A stretch of DNA of 55,613 nt, taken from contig PFXI01000064.1 in the NCBI GenBank assembly GCA_002791575.1, forward strand, positions 1 through 55,613, in the 5' to 3' direction. Position numbers and translations under genes: made by a program. The notes under the pieces are model-generated. The model did not search any database. It saw only the letters and a program-made list of their open reading frames with translations, and had not been told where the DNA came from. Below are positions 32,013-38,696 of the stretch, in pieces (position 1 is the stretch's first letter; each line of letters begins with the position of its first letter). This DNA comes from Zetaproteobacteria bacterium CG_4_9_14_3_um_filter_54_145. GTDB lineage: Bacteria > Pseudomonadota > Zetaproteobacteria > Mariprofundales > Mariprofundaceae.

Positions 32013-32396
32013 ATTTCACTTCATGATAACCTTGAGCAATTAAGGGTGGAAATGGATCTTATTTTCATTCTGGTCGTCAACGACGAAGGCCTGACCATGG
32101 CCGAAGCCGGTGACTCTCCCGGAGATGACTTTGCGCCCTATTCTTCGTCCATCATGGAAAATGCCAGCAAAATGGCAGCAATCGGCCAGCTGGGAAAGCC
32201 CGTGTGCAGCGCACTGGTGCTTGAGCGTGGACGCATGCTGATTATGCATGAAGCCAAGCTGGATGGTGAATCAATCTATCTGTCTATTTTGTGTCGCAGG
32301 GTACCGGCCGGTGTTCAGAGCCTGATCCGGAAAATTGTCGACTGTGTTGCCAAAGCCTTGCTCGGCGATGGTTACGAGGAGCACTTGATTGGATAA
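32013..32396 (+). CDS. Roadblock/LC7-like protein A, probably starting at ATT
   Basis: About 127 residues of the Roadblock/LC7 fold (beta-alpha-beta-beta-beta-alpha; ILVVNDEGLTMAEAGD, then the LIMHEAK strand). The first ATG/GTG (32052/32046) would remove the first helix, yet DNLEQLR just upstream aligns without gaps to DKLESLR of the paralogue at 46650. The only start that restores the helix is ATT 32013, which has AAGGAG seven bases upstream, ideal spacing. AUU starts are known but rare (infC). Roadblock proteins regulate small GTPases; a MglA-like GTPase gene lies 5.7 kb downstream. It overlaps the next gene by eight bases. Confidence 0.8.
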   Translation: MSLHDNLEQLRVEMDLIFILVVNDEGLTMAEAGDSPGDDFAPYSSSIMENASKMAAIGQLGKPVCSALVLERGRMLIMHEAKLDGESIYLSILCRRVPAGVQSLIRKIVDCVAKALLGDGYEEHLIG

Positions 32397-32874
32397 ATAC
32401 AAAAAAGCCTGCCGGGATGAGCTTGAACAGCTGGTTGCCAGGGAAACACATCTGAATGCCGCTCTTCTATGCAGCGTGGACGGCCTGCCTGTGGCCTATG
32501 CCGCCAGTGTAGAAGTTGAAGCGGATGCCATCGCAGCCATGTGCTCATCCATGCTCTCACTCGGTGATGCACTCGCCATCCAGGGCGGCGATGACGACTG
32601 TATTCAGGTGGTTACACAATCACGCGGCCATACCGTAGCCCTGATCCATGCCGGCAACGACATGCTGCTGGCGCTGATGGGCAGCAGCGAACTGAAACTG
32701 GGCATGCTGCTCGGCCACGCAAGAAAAGAGGTCGAAATCATTATCGACCTGATGGATAAATCAAAACAGGAAAAGAAACAGAGCGAAGAGAACAAACCCG
32801 CCGCACAAAAGAAGCCGGCCATGCTGGAAGAACTGGTTAAACGCGTGATGCAGGAAGCACAAAACAGGAAATAG
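32389..32874 (+). CDS. Roadblock/LC7 protein B with charged C-terminal tail
   Basis: 161 residues. A Roadblock/LC7 domain (about 8-120; HLNAALLCSVDGLPVAYAAS, then IQVVTQSRGHTVALIHA) is followed by a Lys/Glu-rich tail (DKSKQEKKQSEENK) and a terminal helix. The start is TTG 32389 with GAGGAG seven bases before, overlapping the end of protein A, so the two are coupled. Roadblock dimers act as GTPase-activating or scaffold proteins, for example MglB in Myxococcus. The tail could add a partner-binding site. Confidence 0.8.
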   Translation: MDKYKKACRDELEQLVARETHLNAALLCSVDGLPVAYAASVEVEADAIAAMCSSMLSLGDALAIQGGDDDCIQVVTQSRGHTVALIHAGNDMLLALMGSSELKLGMLLGHARKEVEIIIDLMDKSKQEKKQSEENKPAAQKKPAMLEELVKRVMQEAQNRK

Positions 32875-32901: not shown

Positions 32902-33300
32902 ATGAACGAAACACTGGAAAAGCTGGTGAAAGAAGTGGAAGGCGGCCTCGCGGCAGCCGTAGTTGATCTCACCAGCGGGCTGATTGTCGGCGCCTATCAT
33001 AATGTGCCCTACTTCACCCAGTCCTATGTTGATGCAGTCGGCGCTGCCGCAGTTGATATCTTTCGCGGCAAAACAATTACCGCGGTTGAAACCATGATGG
33101 CTGCCCAGCGTGGTGATGAGCTGAAGTATCATATCAAGGAGATCCAGATGACCACCGATGGCACATACCATTTCATGGCGGTCATACCGGAAAAACCCGA
33201 CTACCTGCTGGTATTCATCACCCGCATCACCACCAACCTCGGCGCCGGCTGGATGGCCACAAGGGACGCACTGAAAGCTGCCACCCCGCTCTGCCCGTAA
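32902..33300 (+). CDS. Roadblock/LC7-like protein C
   Basis: 132 residues, one Roadblock-like domain (LEKLVKEVEGGLAAAVVDLTSGLIVGAYH, with long second strand pair near YHFMAVIPEKPDYLLVFI). ATG 32902 follows GGAGATGAAAGC. It closes the first three-gene run of the group; a small hairpin (33318-33336) separates it from the convergent kinase-phosphatase gene. Three different Roadblock proteins in one operon suggest heteromeric complexes. Confidence 0.78.
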   Translation: MNETLEKLVKEVEGGLAAAVVDLTSGLIVGAYHNVPYFTQSYVDAVGAAAVDIFRGKTITAVETMMAAQRGDELKYHIKEIQMTTDGTYHFMAVIPEKPDYLLVFITRITTNLGAGWMATRDALKAATPLCP

Positions 33301-33336: not shown

Positions 33337-34869
33337 CTAACGCCCCTCGCGCGTGCGGGCAATCAGATCCTGCGAGAAACCGAAGCGCTGCATATCCGCA
33401 ATCAGCGGCTCGATATCGTACTCCACCGTCAGCATCTCCACACTCAGGTCGTGCGGATAAAAAATCGCCGCGCGTGCAGCAATCTTACCCCCCCTGCTTT
33501 GTCCCACGGAACCCGGACAGACAAGTGCTGCATCCAGTCCCTTCAAATCCATCCGCTCAGCGCAGACAAATGGCATATCCCGTCCGCATGAACGGGCAAA
33601 AACACCCTGAATGTGCGAGTGACCGTGCAAACAAAGCTTCACACCCGCCTCTACCAGAAAATCGAGATTCCGCTCTGAGGTCATCTCGTAGACATAGGCG
33701 TTAAAAAAACTTTTATCAACAGGTGCGCCATGTACAGCCATCCATGCGTGGTTACGATAACGCACAGGCAACTCCCCCAGCCAGCTACACTCCTCTTCCC
33801 CCAGCACGCCTATTGTCCAGTCTGCAACACGTCTGGCCATAATGCCCATGGCCACCCTGACATCCCCATGGTGTGCCACATAATGGTCATGATTGCCGCG
33901 CAGGCAGTACATATCGCGCTCCCTGACCAGGTCAATGCACGCCTTTGGGTTCGGTCCGTAACCAACAACGTCGCCAAGCATCAGATATTGCCTGATGCCG
34001 CGCGCATCCAGCGCCTTTAGCACGGCTTCAAAGGCAGGCAAGTTGGCGTGCACATCGGCAAGTACGGCAATCGGTTCTGCCGCCACGGGCCATTCATCGG
34101 CCTGATCAATGCCAACGGCAGCATGCCTTGCACACAAGGCCTGTAGAAAACGCTGCTTCAGTACTTCGTGACGACCGACAATTTGGTCTTTAAGACTTTC
34201 ACACACCATATCGCCGGCATCGGATGAGTGGGTGCGCAACAGCGGTTTGAGCGACTCACCAAGCTGCTGCCAGTCATCCTCATCCAGGCAGAGTGATTCG
34301 GATGTGCGCAACCAGTTACCCAGCATGGCGGAAAACGAGGTAAAGTGATCCCAGGGATAGATATCATCGTCCAGATAACAGAACCCGCCATCAGTCTCTG
34401 CACACAACGCAAAATTGGAGAGCCCGTCATCCAGCTTCAGATTATACCTGCCGGCAAAACCCAGATAACAATCGAGCACCCGCAGCAGCAGGTGGCTACG
34501 CTCCTCTTTTGTACTGCCTGCGAAATCAAACCGATGCAGCGCCAACAGTTGCGGTGTCAGATTTGCCGTCCGGTACACCCCGTCAACAGAGAGCACCACC
34601 CAGGTGCGTTGCGGGTGATAGATGGCAAAATCGATCTCTTTTTTCAGCTGCAGCCGACACCACTGTTCGGCTACTTCCATTGATGGAAATTGACGTCCCT
34701 GGTTGATTTTCAACACCAGCTGGCCATCACTGTGAATGCGTGTTTGCGGCTTGCCGGTAAATGCCCCGTGATGCGTCAGCCGCACGGGCTCCAGGTTTGC
34801 CAGCTGCAGAATCTCTGCGGCGTCAGCAAGCTGGCTTCCACCCAGAGTGCCAATGATCAAAACTTCCAT
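33337..34869 (-). CDS. Fusion of an atypical kinase-like domain and a metallophosphoesterase
   Basis: 510 residues from ATG 34869. The C-terminal half (about 265-510) is a calcineurin-type phosphoesterase with every metal motif intact: ADVHAN (272-274), LGDVVGYG (299-300), RGNHDH (325-328), AVHGAP (380) and LHGHSH (415-419). The N-terminal half is not annotated by eye as any common family, but it has kinase-like marks at the right spacing: Lys54 in LVLKI, Asp147 and Asn152 in KLDDGLSNF (five residues apart, as in HRDLKPEN), and acidic YLDDD at 165-169. I infer a kinase-phosphatase (or pseudokinase-phosphatase) fusion. It lies on the opposite strand inside the Roadblock/GTPase group and diverges from Roadblock protein D. 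Confidence 0.75.
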   Translation of the reverse strand: MEVLIIGTLGGSQLADAAEILQLANLEPVRLTHHGAFTGKPQTRIHSDGQLVLKINQGRQFPSMEVAEQWCRLQLKKEIDFAIYHPQRTWVVLSVDGVYRTANLTPQLLALHRFDFAGSTKEERSHLLLRVLDCYLGFAGRYNLKLDDGLSNFALCAETDGGFCYLDDDIYPWDHFTSFSAMLGNWLRTSESLCLDEDDWQQLGESLKPLLRTHSSDAGDMVCESLKDQIVGRHEVLKQRFLQALCARHAAVGIDQADEWPVAAEPIAVLADVHANLPAFEAVLKALDARGIRQYLMLGDVVGYGPNPKACIDLVRERDMYCLRGNHDHYVAHHGDVRVAMGIMARRVADWTIGVLGEEECSWLGELPVRYRNHAWMAVHGAPVDKSFFNAYVYEMTSERNLDFLVEAGVKLCLHGHSHIQGVFARSCGRDMPFVCAERMDLKGLDAALVCPGSVGQSRGGKIAARAAIFYPHDLSVEMLTVEYDIEPLIADMQRFGFSQDLIARTREGR

Positions 34870-35034
34870 ATATCTGTTTCCCCTGTCAGCATAAGCAGAC
34901 GCATAACTACGTGATGACAGCGGCAAGGTCAAACCTGCATGCATGACCGCACCCGCCATTGTAACAGTTTCTTTTTTGTGGAAACCGTGCTCAATTATGG
35001 TTATATTACCGGCTGCCAGGGGGGACTTTCAGGC

Positions 35035-35427
35035 TTGCAACAGAACACTTCAATCAAACTGGATATACGCCTGCACGGCATATTGGAAGAGACTCGCCAG
35101 CAACATGATCTGCGCTCGCTACTGCTGGCCGATCACCACGGCTTGCCCGTCTGCCATGCCGGAGAAATTTCCCATACCGGCATCGCAGCTATTGCACCGG
35201 AACTGATCCGTGTAGGCAATCATGCCGCCCGCCTTGGCGAATACGACAGCATCACCTGCATCGCCCTGATTCTCGAAGACAGTCACCTGATGGTCATCAG
35301 GGATGTGGAGATCAACGGCACCCCCTATGTGCTGGTCATGGATACGGCAGCTGTTCCGCAGGGCATCAAGCGCGTATTAAACAGACTCAGGGATCGCATA
35401 GCCGAAGCAATGGATGCATACGCTTAG
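35035..35427 (+). CDS. Roadblock/LC7 protein D
   Basis: About 130 residues with one Roadblock domain (LHGILEETRQQHDLRSLLLAD, GLPVCHAGE, MVIRDVEINGTPYVLVMDTAAV). The frame is open further upstream, but only TTG 35035 gives a family-like N-terminus; AGGGGGGA lies nine bases before it. The start is therefore less sure than the gene. It heads a second run of the group, 29 bases before the ODP gene, and its control region is shared with the divergent kinase-phosphatase gene. Confidence 0.78.
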   Translation: MQQNTSIKLDIRLHGILEETRQQHDLRSLLLADHHGLPVCHAGEISHTGIAAIAPELIRVGNHAARLGEYDSITCIALILEDSHLMVIRDVEINGTPYVLVMDTAAVPQGIKRVLNRLRDRIAEAMDAYA

Positions 35428-35456: not shown

Positions 35457-36206
35457 ATGGCAGACGTAATATATGAACAGGACGGGCACCGGAATATCTT
35501 CTTTGAAGATTTCACCGAAGGCGAGATGGTTTCGGCCAACCAGCACCTGATCATCCACAATGGCAAAGGCATGCTGCTCGATCCGGGTGGACACAAGGTC
35601 TATTCAAAAATATTTGCCGCCATGCCGGAATTCCTGTCGCCATCCGCACTCGAATACCTGTTTCTCTCCCATCAGGATCCCGACATCGTGGCATCCATCA
35701 ACGGCTGGCTGATGGTCACCGATGCGGATGCCTATATGTCGGCGATATGGCGACGTTTTGTTGCCCATTTCGGTGTTGACGGCAGTGTCATGGACAGGAT
35801 GAAAACCATCCCTGATGAAGGTATGCGCATTGATCTCAACGGCTGCGAACTGCTTATCATTCCGGCTCACTTTCTCCATTCAGCCGGCAATTTCCATGTC
35901 TATGATCCACTGTCGAAGATCCTCTATTCCGGCGATCTGGGTGCAGCCCTCGTCGACTACCGCTTTGTCGAGGATTTTGATACCCACACCGGCCACATGG
36001 CGGGCTTTCATAACCGTTACATGGCCAGCAGCACAGCCTGCAAGCTCTGGGCAAAAATGGTGCGTGATCTGGATATCGAAATCATCGCCCCGCAACACGG
36101 TGCCATATTTCGCGGCAAACAGATGTGCAACAGCTTTATTGACTGGGTGGAAAAGCTCGAGCCCGGTGCTGAAGCAATGCAGCACGTTTACAAACTACCA
36201 GCTTAA
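35457..36206 (+). CDS. ODP-type di-iron oxygen-binding beta-lactamase-fold protein
   Basis: 249 residues, metallo-beta-lactamase fold without the flavodoxin domain of flavodiiron oxidases. Likely iron ligands are His72, Asp74 and Asp76 (SHQDPDIVAS), one or two His in AHFLHSAGN (138, 141), Asp160 (YSGDLGA) and His214 (PQHGAIF). The usual second His of the HxExDH motif is Ile77. This matches the ODP group, known from Treponema as an O2 sensor that works with chemotaxis proteins. Here it sits between two Roadblock genes, so I infer that it reports oxygen to the GTPase system. ATG 35457 follows GAGGAG. Confidence 0.85.
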   Translation: MADVIYEQDGHRNIFFEDFTEGEMVSANQHLIIHNGKGMLLDPGGHKVYSKIFAAMPEFLSPSALEYLFLSHQDPDIVASINGWLMVTDADAYMSAIWRRFVAHFGVDGSVMDRMKTIPDEGMRIDLNGCELLIIPAHFLHSAGNFHVYDPLSKILYSGDLGAALVDYRFVEDFDTHTGHMAGFHNRYMASSTACKLWAKMVRDLDIEIIAPQHGAIFRGKQMCNSFIDWVEKLEPGAEAMQHVYKLPA

Positions 36207-36231: not shown

Positions 36232-36597
36232 ATGGCAACAAAACAGGAAAGAATTAATACCGTGCTGAATGATCTGAAAATGGCGACATCGGACATTCAG
36301 GGCGTTGGCGTCATCAGCCCGGATGGCATGATGATCGCAGACCAGCTGGGCGGCAATCAGGGGGATGCAACCGCAGCCATGGGTGCTGCACTCGGCAGCC
36401 TGGCCAAACGCGTCACCACCACACTCAAGGTTGGCGATTTTCAGGAAGTGAATATTCGCGGCACGAATGCCGGCATTCTGCTGTTTGATATCGAGGGACG
36501 CGCAGCCCTGATTCTCACCGTTGCCAAGGCAGCAAACCTGGGTCTGGTCCTGCTGGAAGCAAGACAGGCGCAGGCTCAGCTAGCGCAAATCATTTAA
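36232..36597 (+). CDS. Roadblock/LC7 protein E, MglB-like
   Basis: 121 residues, the most canonical Roadblock/LC7 of the set: INTVLNDLKMATSDIQGVGVISPDGMMIADQL, then a helix rich in Ala, then EVNIRGTNAGILLFDIEGRAALILTV. ATG 36232 has AGGAGG seven bases upstream. MglB-type proteins are GTPase-activating dimers for MglA; a MglA-like GTPase is 1.5 kb downstream. A long hairpin follows directly. Confidence 0.88.
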   Translation: MATKQERINTVLNDLKMATSDIQGVGVISPDGMMIADQLGGNQGDATAAMGAALGSLAKRVTTTLKVGDFQEVNIRGTNAGILLFDIEGRAALILTVAKAANLGLVLLEARQAQAQLAQII

Positions 36598-36745: not shown

Positions 36746-37267
36746 ATGTCACACACCACAAAAGAAAATTTCATCAAAGCCAAGCTGTTCACCCGCTTTG
36801 ACGAGCTCTATGCGCCTGTTTTGCCCCGCATCAAGGCAACAGTAATGCAACAGCAGCAGATCATCACCGACACATTCTATGCCGAGCTGTCAAAAGATGA
36901 GGCCGCCGCCAAAATTGTTGCCGGCCGCGTAGATCAACTCAAAGCCACGCACAAGGCATGGATGGAAGAGTTATTCAACGGCGACTATGGCGATGACTAT
37001 TTTGACCGGCGCTACAAGATTGGTGAAATCCACGTCAAAGCAAAAATTGAACCCTATTATGTGGAGGTCGTCACCTCATACCTGCGCCGGGCATTTGCTG
37101 ATGCACTGATTGAAGAGGGGGCCGAGGCGATCCAGGCGTCACTGGCCATACTTGATCTGGATGCCATGATCATTATCGGCGCCTACCATGAGGATCGCAT
37201 GCGACGCATGTCCGAGGTCACCGGCATGAATCAAAAGCTACTTGAAACGCTGATGAGCTTTGGCTAA
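36746..37267 (+). CDS. Protoglobin / single-domain globin sensor
   Basis: 173 residues, one globin domain of the sensor-globin (protoglobin) class. Diagnostic segments are HKAWMEELFNGDYGDDYFDRRYKIG and the proximal heme ligand His96 in GEIHVKAKIEPYYV, with the distal Phe44-Tyr45 pair in TDTFYAEL. No output domain is attached. In this setting it probably reports O2, NO or CO to a partner protein. A hairpin and a 100-base gap separate it from the Roadblock E gene, so it may have its own promoter. Confidence 0.9.
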   Translation: MSHTTKENFIKAKLFTRFDELYAPVLPRIKATVMQQQQIITDTFYAELSKDEAAAKIVAGRVDQLKATHKAWMEELFNGDYGDDYFDRRYKIGEIHVKAKIEPYYVEVVTSYLRRAFADALIEEGAEAIQASLAILDLDAMIIIGAYHEDRMRRMSEVTGMNQKLLETLMSFG

Positions 37268-37476: not shown

Positions 37477-38106
37477 ATGAATTCTCTTGTTTATCTCCGC
37501 CGTATGATCATCAACCAGAAAGCTGCACGGTTGGATTATACGAAGGGCTCAGTAACCAAAAGCATCTACTATGAGCGTGCCGGCTTTGAAGGCTCTCACC
37601 GGGATGTGACTGAAAAACTGCGTGAAGTATTCGAGGCGGACTCTGTCAATGTTGTTACCAGCACCGATCTTGAGTTTCTTTCCAGTAAACGTGTATTTGC
37701 GCCGCAGGCGATCTCATCGGCGCTCGCAGGTTACACCTTCAATGCGGAGATGCGGGCTGCCCTGCTTAGCTTTACCATGCGGCTGCCCCCGCTGATTGTC
37801 CGGCTCTATCCCATGCAGCGCTATGCTTTTCAGGATAATTCGGCCTATATGAAAATGCACATGCAGTATCAGCACAACGGTTCCTTACGCATGCAGAATT
37901 ATGTGTCACAGGCGGAAAATACGCGCGATGAAATCATTCGCCTCAGGGTAATGATGGCCACCTATATCCTTGGCCTGATCGCACCGATCAATGCCGGCTC
38001 CAGAAATGAACTGAAGAGCCATCAGGAAACACAGCGCATGCGGCAACCGCAGAAAAAGAAAACATCCATTCTAAGTCGCATTATCAGCAGAATCAGGGGC
38101 CTGTGA
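37477..38106 (+). CDS. Unrecognised 209-residue protein paired with a GTPase
   Basis: I do not recognise it. It is mixed alpha/beta, without membrane helices. A middle part rich in Met, Tyr and Arg (RLPPLIVRLYPMQRYAF, MKMHMQYQHNG) is followed by a basic C-terminus (RQPQKKKTSILSRIISRIR) that could be an amphipathic membrane-binding helix. GAAAGAGGG precedes ATG 37477. The stop overlaps the GTG two codons before the GTPase ATG, so the two are translated together. A role as GTPase partner or effector is inferred from position only. Confidence 0.65.
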   Translation: MNSLVYLRRMIINQKAARLDYTKGSVTKSIYYERAGFEGSHRDVTEKLREVFEADSVNVVTSTDLEFLSSKRVFAPQAISSALAGYTFNAEMRAALLSFTMRLPPLIVRLYPMQRYAFQDNSAYMKMHMQYQHNGSLRMQNYVSQAENTRDEIIRLRVMMATYILGLIAPINAGSRNELKSHQETQRMRQPQKKKTSILSRIISRIRGL

Positions 38107-38108
38107 TC

Positions 38109-38696
38109 ATGACAGAAGAGAAACAGATAGTTAAACTGGTTATTACCGGGCCGGTGAATGCCGGTAAAACCACGATGGTTCAAAACCTCAGTGATACACA
38201 GATTGCCGCCACGGATGTAGCTGCGACCGATTCGGTTTCCCAGCTCAAGGCCATGACCACGGTCGGTCTGGATTTCGGTATACTCAAGATTGATGATACA
38301 CTGGAGATGCACCTGTTCGGGACTCCGGGACAGGCACGTTTCAACTTTATGTGGAAAATCCTCTCCAAGGGAGCCATCGGCGCCATCTTCCTTGTCGACA
38401 GCACCTGTGATGAATCGCTGCTGGAGATGAAAAAGATGTTCGAGTACTTCTCCGAGCATGTTGACTTGCCCGTTGTTGTCGGTGCAACCAAGCAGGATCT
38501 GCCCGGGGCAAAAACGCCGGATGAAATTGCCGCCCTGCTGGATCTCGGCGACACTATGGTGATACCTGTCGATGCACGTGTAAAAGAGGGCAGTAAAATG
38601 TTAGCCCTGACACTGCTTGGTAATGCTCTGGTTGAGGCACAGGCTGATGAGGAAGATTTTGACGATGATGATTACGATTATGATGAACTGTTCTGA
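38109..38696 (+). CDS. MglA-like small Ras-type GTPase with acidic tail
   Basis: 195 residues. G1 is GPVNAGKTT (14-22), G2 Thr lies around 50-51 (MTTVGLDFG), G3 is LFGTPGQARF (Gly replaces the usual Asp of DxxG, as in bacterial GTPases of the COG2229/MglA group), G4 is TKQD (127-130), and G5 lies near VIPVDAR. The last 18 residues are almost all acidic or Tyr (EEDFDDDDYDYDELF). Roadblock proteins are the known regulators of this GTPase class. It may set polarity or switch motility. GTG 38103 is an alternative start. Confidence 0.92.
   Translation: MTEEKQIVKLVITGPVNAGKTTMVQNLSDTQIAATDVAATDSVSQLKAMTTVGLDFGILKIDDTLEMHLFGTPGQARFNFMWKILSKGAIGAIFLVDSTCDESLLEMKKMFEYFSEHVDLPVVVGATKQDLPGAKTPDEIAALLDLGDTMVIPVDARVKEGSKMLALTLLGNALVEAQADEEDFDDDDYDYDELF

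Follow-up and report, generated by a model that had tools for sequence, protein, structure and literature searches.

A predicted kinase-fold domain fused to a metallophosphoesterase is encoded near Roadblock and MglA-type GTPase genes

The protein described here joins an N-terminal domain of predicted kinase fold to an intact calcineurin-like metallophosphoesterase, and in most of the homologous loci its gene is accompanied by genes for Roadblock proteins or an MglA-type GTPase. The reading we favor, at about even odds, is that the fusion regulates a Group 3 MglA-type GTPase system through its two domains, one a minimal kinase-fold enzyme that is active and the other a phosphoesterase. Such a protein would add a candidate enzyme component to a bacterial Ras-like GTPase system and, if both halves share a target, would place both arms of a modification cycle in one gene, beside the likely target.

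The fusion gene and its phosphoesterase half

In the window (the whole stretch of 55,613 nucleotides that was analyzed) the fusion gene lies at 33337-34869, where the initial annotation had located it, and reads on the minus strand from an ATG at 34869 to a stop ending at 33337 (Table 1). Several stops were present on the plus strand of this interval, and promoter and terminator scans gave signals no better than those of shuffled sequence. All motifs to which attention had been drawn were recovered in the translation, including K54 in LVLKI, D147 and N152 in KLDDGLSNF and the YLDDD segment at residues 165-169 of the N-terminal half, as well as D272xH274, GD300, GNH325-327, H380 and GHSH416-419 of the phosphoesterase. 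The only Pfam match in the chain was Metallophos (residues 266-420, E 1.9e-14). The metal ligands D272, H274, D300, N326, H327, H380, H417 and H419 were invariant in a full-length alignment of 69 rows, and the five metal motifs are intact as claimed. With its Pfam match and full ligand set, the C-terminal half is a calcineurin-like metallophosphoesterase. The closest PDB sequence, 3rqz, matched residues 267-508. With 31-33% identity to 3rqz, a target-normalised TM of 0.84 and all metal ligands, the domain resembles the 3rqz/SapH type of calcineurin-like metallophosphoesterase, from which it differs in being joined to a kinase-fold domain. The nearest characterised phosphoesterase structures include the asymmetric Ap4A hydrolase SapH and not a protein phosphatase.

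Table 1. Coordinates of the fusion gene, its predicted domains and neighboring genes in the window.
Feature	Position	Strand	Length or basis
Kinase-fold–metallophosphoesterase fusion gene	33337..34869	-	510 aa
Predicted kinase-fold domain, residues 1-248	34126..34869	-	AlphaFold2, Foldseek, conservation
Calcineurin-like metallophosphoesterase, residues 267-510	33340..34071	-	Pfam; closest solved structure 3rqz
R132, divergent Roadblock protein	32902..33300	+	no Pfam match; hhalign to Roadblock 87-90%
Roadblock/LC7 (MglB-like) protein	32389..32874	+	Pfam Robl_LC7 3e-11
Small island protein	32046..32396	+	no Pfam match; beside Roadblock genes in relatives too
Roadblock-like protein, divergent from fusion gene	34939..35427	+	weak LAMTOR5 match
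Roadblock/LC7 protein	36232..36597	+	Pfam Robl_LC7 1.3e-9
MglA-family small GTPase	38103..38696	+	GTPGQ (G3) and DAR (G5) motifs

Fold and conservation of the N-terminal domain

The N-terminal region of about 250 residues had no match in Pfam, NCBIfam, PHROGs, PADLOC or the PDB sequences and, because PADLOC and PHROGs gave nothing, the fusion is not among the known proteins of defence systems or phages. Pfam kinase families were not matched by any of the 69 fusion members. By hhalign, comparisons of the N-domain with APH, Pkinase, Kdo and ABC1 profiles remained at background (probability up to 0.4%); as a positive control, the alignments of these four families built here detected one another at 43-96%. 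D147 and N152 fell on the Kdo DLNAHN loop in the background-level alignment to Kdo kinases, an agreement to which we give little weight. Two candidate identities from Pfam/NCBIfam, FBPase_2 and DUF3781, were rejected as weak matches not common to all members, and bL25m, the single match of N-domain profile searches of PDB, was judged to be due to chance.

AlphaFold2 prediction from the 69-row alignment reached a pLDDT of 93.4 for the whole chain and 95.8 for the N-domain, which was modelled alone because Foldseek searches with the whole protein returned phosphoesterase matches only. The N-domain model begins with a strand-helix pair (residues 2-24) and the GxFxGKPxT loop (residues 35-43), followed by strands 43-47 and 51-61 (K54), helix 64-81 (E78), strands 89-95 and 98-106, helix 121-142 and a loop carrying D147 and N152, and then by strands 153-155 and 163-165, D167-D169 and helix 177-188. 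This predicted order of strands and helices is that of kinases minus the activation segment, for which the model has no space between D169 and helix 177-188. Kinase-fold proteins accounted for all 50 of the matches listed when the N-domain was searched against PDB with Foldseek, including MLKL, a CMGC kinase, ABC1-type proteins, AceK, KEOPS, VRK1, OspG and CurKC, with weak scores throughout (best E 6.8e-4, TM below 0.5 and mostly 0.3-0.47, large rmsd). In an independent viral library, named kinases were 35 of the 50 matches listed. HipA was absent among the structural matches listed.

Conservation was counted in 41 distinct homologues obtained by BLAST/HMM, repeated without the motif-scan sequences because the scan of genome contigs had used patterns around residues 145-153 and 167-174. 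K54 and D147 were present in 41/41, E78 in 40/41, and N152, D167 and D168 each in 40/40, so that all three residues on which the kinase reading had relied (Lys54, Asp147 and Asn152) are kept in homologues. The lone E78 exception, an N, is L014, the gene of contig L040, which is outside the 69-row alignment. Among the 69 full-length members the invariant N-domain residues were G39, T43, K54, E78, W90, D147, G149, L150, S151, N152, Y165, D167 and D168; here D147-N152 and D167-D169 were partly selected by the scan patterns, while K54 and E78 were not. All invariant charged residues of the domain sit at kinase catalytic positions, and the set of beta3 Lys, alphaC Glu, catalytic Asp, Asn five residues on and metal Asp is present with the one E-to-N exception. 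The spacing from K to D is 93 and from D to N 5, compared to 94 and 5 in protein kinase A. Conservation of the catalytic residues exceeds chance.

The proposal of a kinase-like N-terminal half, originally drawn from residue spacing, is thus supported by the element order, the kinase-fold Foldseek matches and the conserved residues, but tempered by modest E-values and TM-scores and by profile comparisons at background. The element order and the Foldseek matches, with TM below 0.5, suggest a fold of two kinase-like lobes, and the N-domain would then represent a kinase-fold family missed by current profile libraries.

Homologues and gene neighborhood

The scan of genome contigs yielded 93 loci, of which 80 were kept. 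The host taxa comprised Zetaproteobacteria, Methylococcales, Thiotrichales (Thiomargarita, Beggiatoa, Thioploca and Marithrix), Marinobacterium, Solimonas, Contendobacter, Nitrospira and one Phycisphaerales assembly, and included many iron-, sulfur- and methane-oxidising bacteria. The nearest relatives by fusion protein were M. ferrooxydans PV-1 and M. erugo, so that the window probably comes from a Mariprofundus-like zetaproteobacterium. Copies not cut by a contig end measured about 470-610 aa; the phosphoesterase family was matched in 69/69 aligned members and a phosphoesterase was found on every full-length copy inspected. BLAST/HMM searches of 61 relatives, 398 genomes of the phylum and 369 genomes of the class of G396 again returned long frames, the exceptions being contig-end fragments or weak partial matches. 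With the N-domain in 15 of the 369 genomes of this class, the family is patchy. Two copies were irregular: the reading frame of L094 is interrupted by masked bases, and a zetaproteobacterial N-domain copy (L136, G212:C36:1217-1945) contains an in-frame TAG, which may mean that the gene is broken or that the assembly is wrong at this point.

The fusion gene had been placed next to a GTPase switch; in the window the GTPase gene starts 3.2 kb away, and the genes adjoining the fusion gene on both sides encode Roadblock-like proteins. Around the 80 homologues the commonest neighbor was R132. Among the 48 loci with at least 4.5 kb of sequence on each side of the fusion gene, 40 had R132 and 43 had some Roadblock or GTPase gene at a distance of no more than 5 kb. 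None of 89 control loci, which were shorter (about 4 kb), was matched by the Roadblock, R132 or GTPase profiles. The co-occurrence is much stronger than could be seen in the initial annotation. Flanks of 1.5 kb already contained R132 in 49/66 loci and a Roadblock or GTPase gene in 61/66. No R132 was found near the fusion gene in seven Thiotrichales-type loci, and in five of these the surrounding 5 kb were also devoid of Roadblock and GTPase genes. In Gammaproteobacteria the genes usually follow one another as [356-aa protein]-GTPase-(Roadblock)-R132-fusion on a single strand. In Mariprofundus the fusion gene is inverted, with R132 on one side and a further Roadblock-like gene on the other. The identity of R132 within the genus was very high (76-92%), above that of the fusion protein itself.

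Among the 61 relatives, the fusion and R132 occurred together in 16 genomes, apart in 4 and neither was present in 41, and the GTPase was present in all 18 fusion-bearing genomes. On an rpoB tree the fusion requires about seven changes, and R132 changed with it in 5/5 independent pairs; the sign test gave p 0.06, as low a value as five pairs allow, with a contribution from linkage. Linkage alone can remove adjacent genes together, which counts against reading this co-loss as functional.

Proposed function, alternatives and known systems

The N-domain has every nucleotide and metal residue of a kinase site (K54, E78, D147, N152 and D167/D168) and is therefore likely to bind ATP-Mg and to transfer a phosphoryl or nucleotidyl group. 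Since the model has no activation segment, the substrate would probably be chosen through a surface different from the peptide groove that kinases commonly use. The C-terminal domain would be an active metallophosphoesterase and may reverse the reaction of the N-domain. Either R132 or the GTPase could be the substrate or partner, with R132 the likeliest because it is the most constant neighbor, and the modification state of a GTPase regulator would then be set both ways by one chain. The weak structural scores, the background-level profile comparisons, the Thiotrichales-type loci without R132 and the Ap4A hydrolase among the nearest characterised phosphoesterases count against this reading. 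We more tentatively propose that an undescribed kinase-fold family and its fused phosphoesterase write and erase a mark on the Roadblock protein or the GTPase, which would tie reversible modification to the MglA-type polarity switch of bacteria living in oxygen gradients.

The main rival to an active enzyme pair assigns the N-domain the role of a kinase-fold nucleotide sensor, with the phosphoesterase hydrolysing a messenger that is a nucleotide or a phosphodiester, Ap4A for example. The GTPase system would then respond to this messenger or to the sensor with ATP bound. The presence of SapH among the nearest solved phosphoesterases, the model without an activation segment and the divergence of the N-domain from known kinase profiles are consistent with this reading, which we regard as possible if rather doubtful; conservation of the whole catalytic set, including D147 as the base, argues against it, as a mere sensor would not need that. 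If the N-domain does act as an enzyme, it may instead be a kinase-fold nucleotidyltransferase performing SelO-like AMPylation, with the phosphoesterase taking AMP off. The metallophosphoesterase superfamily includes phosphodiesterases, in keeping with such a role. There is precedent for a kinase-fold AMPylase that has an eraser of its own (PMC3281104, PMC12663964), but a SelO-specific sequence or structural link was not found among the Foldseek matches listed, and we consider AMPylation improbable.

It also seems improbable to us that the N-domain has an unrelated fold with a superficial likeness to kinases, which would make the protein essentially a phosphoesterase with a partner-binding domain. 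Low TM-scores, weak E-values and profile scores at background would fit such a fold, whereas the matches listed from two structure libraries are kinases almost exclusively, and both the order of elements and the positions of the catalytic residues agree with kinases.

Compared to the protein-kinase-like superfamily (ABC1, AceK, Bud32/KEOPS, OspG, APH), the N-domain shares the predicted element order and the conserved Lys/Glu/Asp/Asn/Asp, but has no detectable profile similarity to Pkinase, APH, Kdo or ABC1, lacks the activation segment in the model, carries an extra N-terminal strand-helix and is always fused to a phosphoesterase. The isocitrate dehydrogenase kinase/phosphatase AceK, which was among the better structural matches, likewise ties a kinase fold to opposing activities in a single chain. 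One active site serves both reactions in AceK, whereas the phosphoesterase of the fusion is a separate calcineurin-like domain. In the actinobacterial conservons (CvnA-D), too, a kinase-related protein accompanies an MglA-type GTPase and a Roadblock protein, but it is a membrane histidine kinase unrelated to the N-domain of the fusion.

In Group 3 MglA systems of beta- and gamma-Proteobacteria, MglA is accompanied by one or two MglB proteins and by a conserved unknown protein (Wuichet and Sogaard-Andersen, PMC4316618). The GTPase in the window has the motifs described for Groups 2 and 3 in that study, GTPGQ in G3 and DAR in G5, with adjoining MglB/Roadblock genes; among the GTPases of relatives the G5 motif is DAR, DPR, DIR or DVR. 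The published conserved unknown protein has a receiver-like domain and a winged helix (PMC4316618). A protein of about 350 aa (~356 aa) without Pfam matches, whose C-terminal part has only weak HTH/winged-helix matches, was found at 26/80 loci (e.g. L095:7265-8332 and L082:7743-8858) and is probably this component; it was not seen near the fusion gene in the window. In contrast, a kinase-fold–phosphoesterase is not on the published component list, and the island in the window also contains additional Roadblock-like genes along with genes for an ODP protein and a protoglobin. A full-text search of open-licence papers found no earlier description of the fusion protein, and since it appears neither in PMC4316618 nor in the other papers found, we read it as an added component of a subset of Group 3 systems.

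Oxygen may be the input of the GTPase system, since many hosts live in oxygen gradients and oxygen-binding proteins recur near the fusion gene. Mariprofundus carries an ODP-family di-iron protein and a protoglobin nearby (35457-36206 and 36746-37267 in the window), and the island of Mariprofundus erugo (L029:5903-8247) has duplicate copies of its protoglobin and Roadblock genes. A tandem-globin protein of about 297 aa was found near the fusion gene at 10 loci; oxygen-binding proteins were recorded at L068:11783-12676, L097, L101, L076 and L050. Additional neighbors included an ABC1/UbiB-like kinase gene together with a gene matching DUF2621, each in 10-11 loci (L073, L044, L046, L045, L048, L103 and L071). 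At some loci (L069:8302-9876, L074, L056, L077 and L090) the small GTPase is replaced by a longer MglA-like GTPase of about 240-720 aa that seems to be joined to additional domains.
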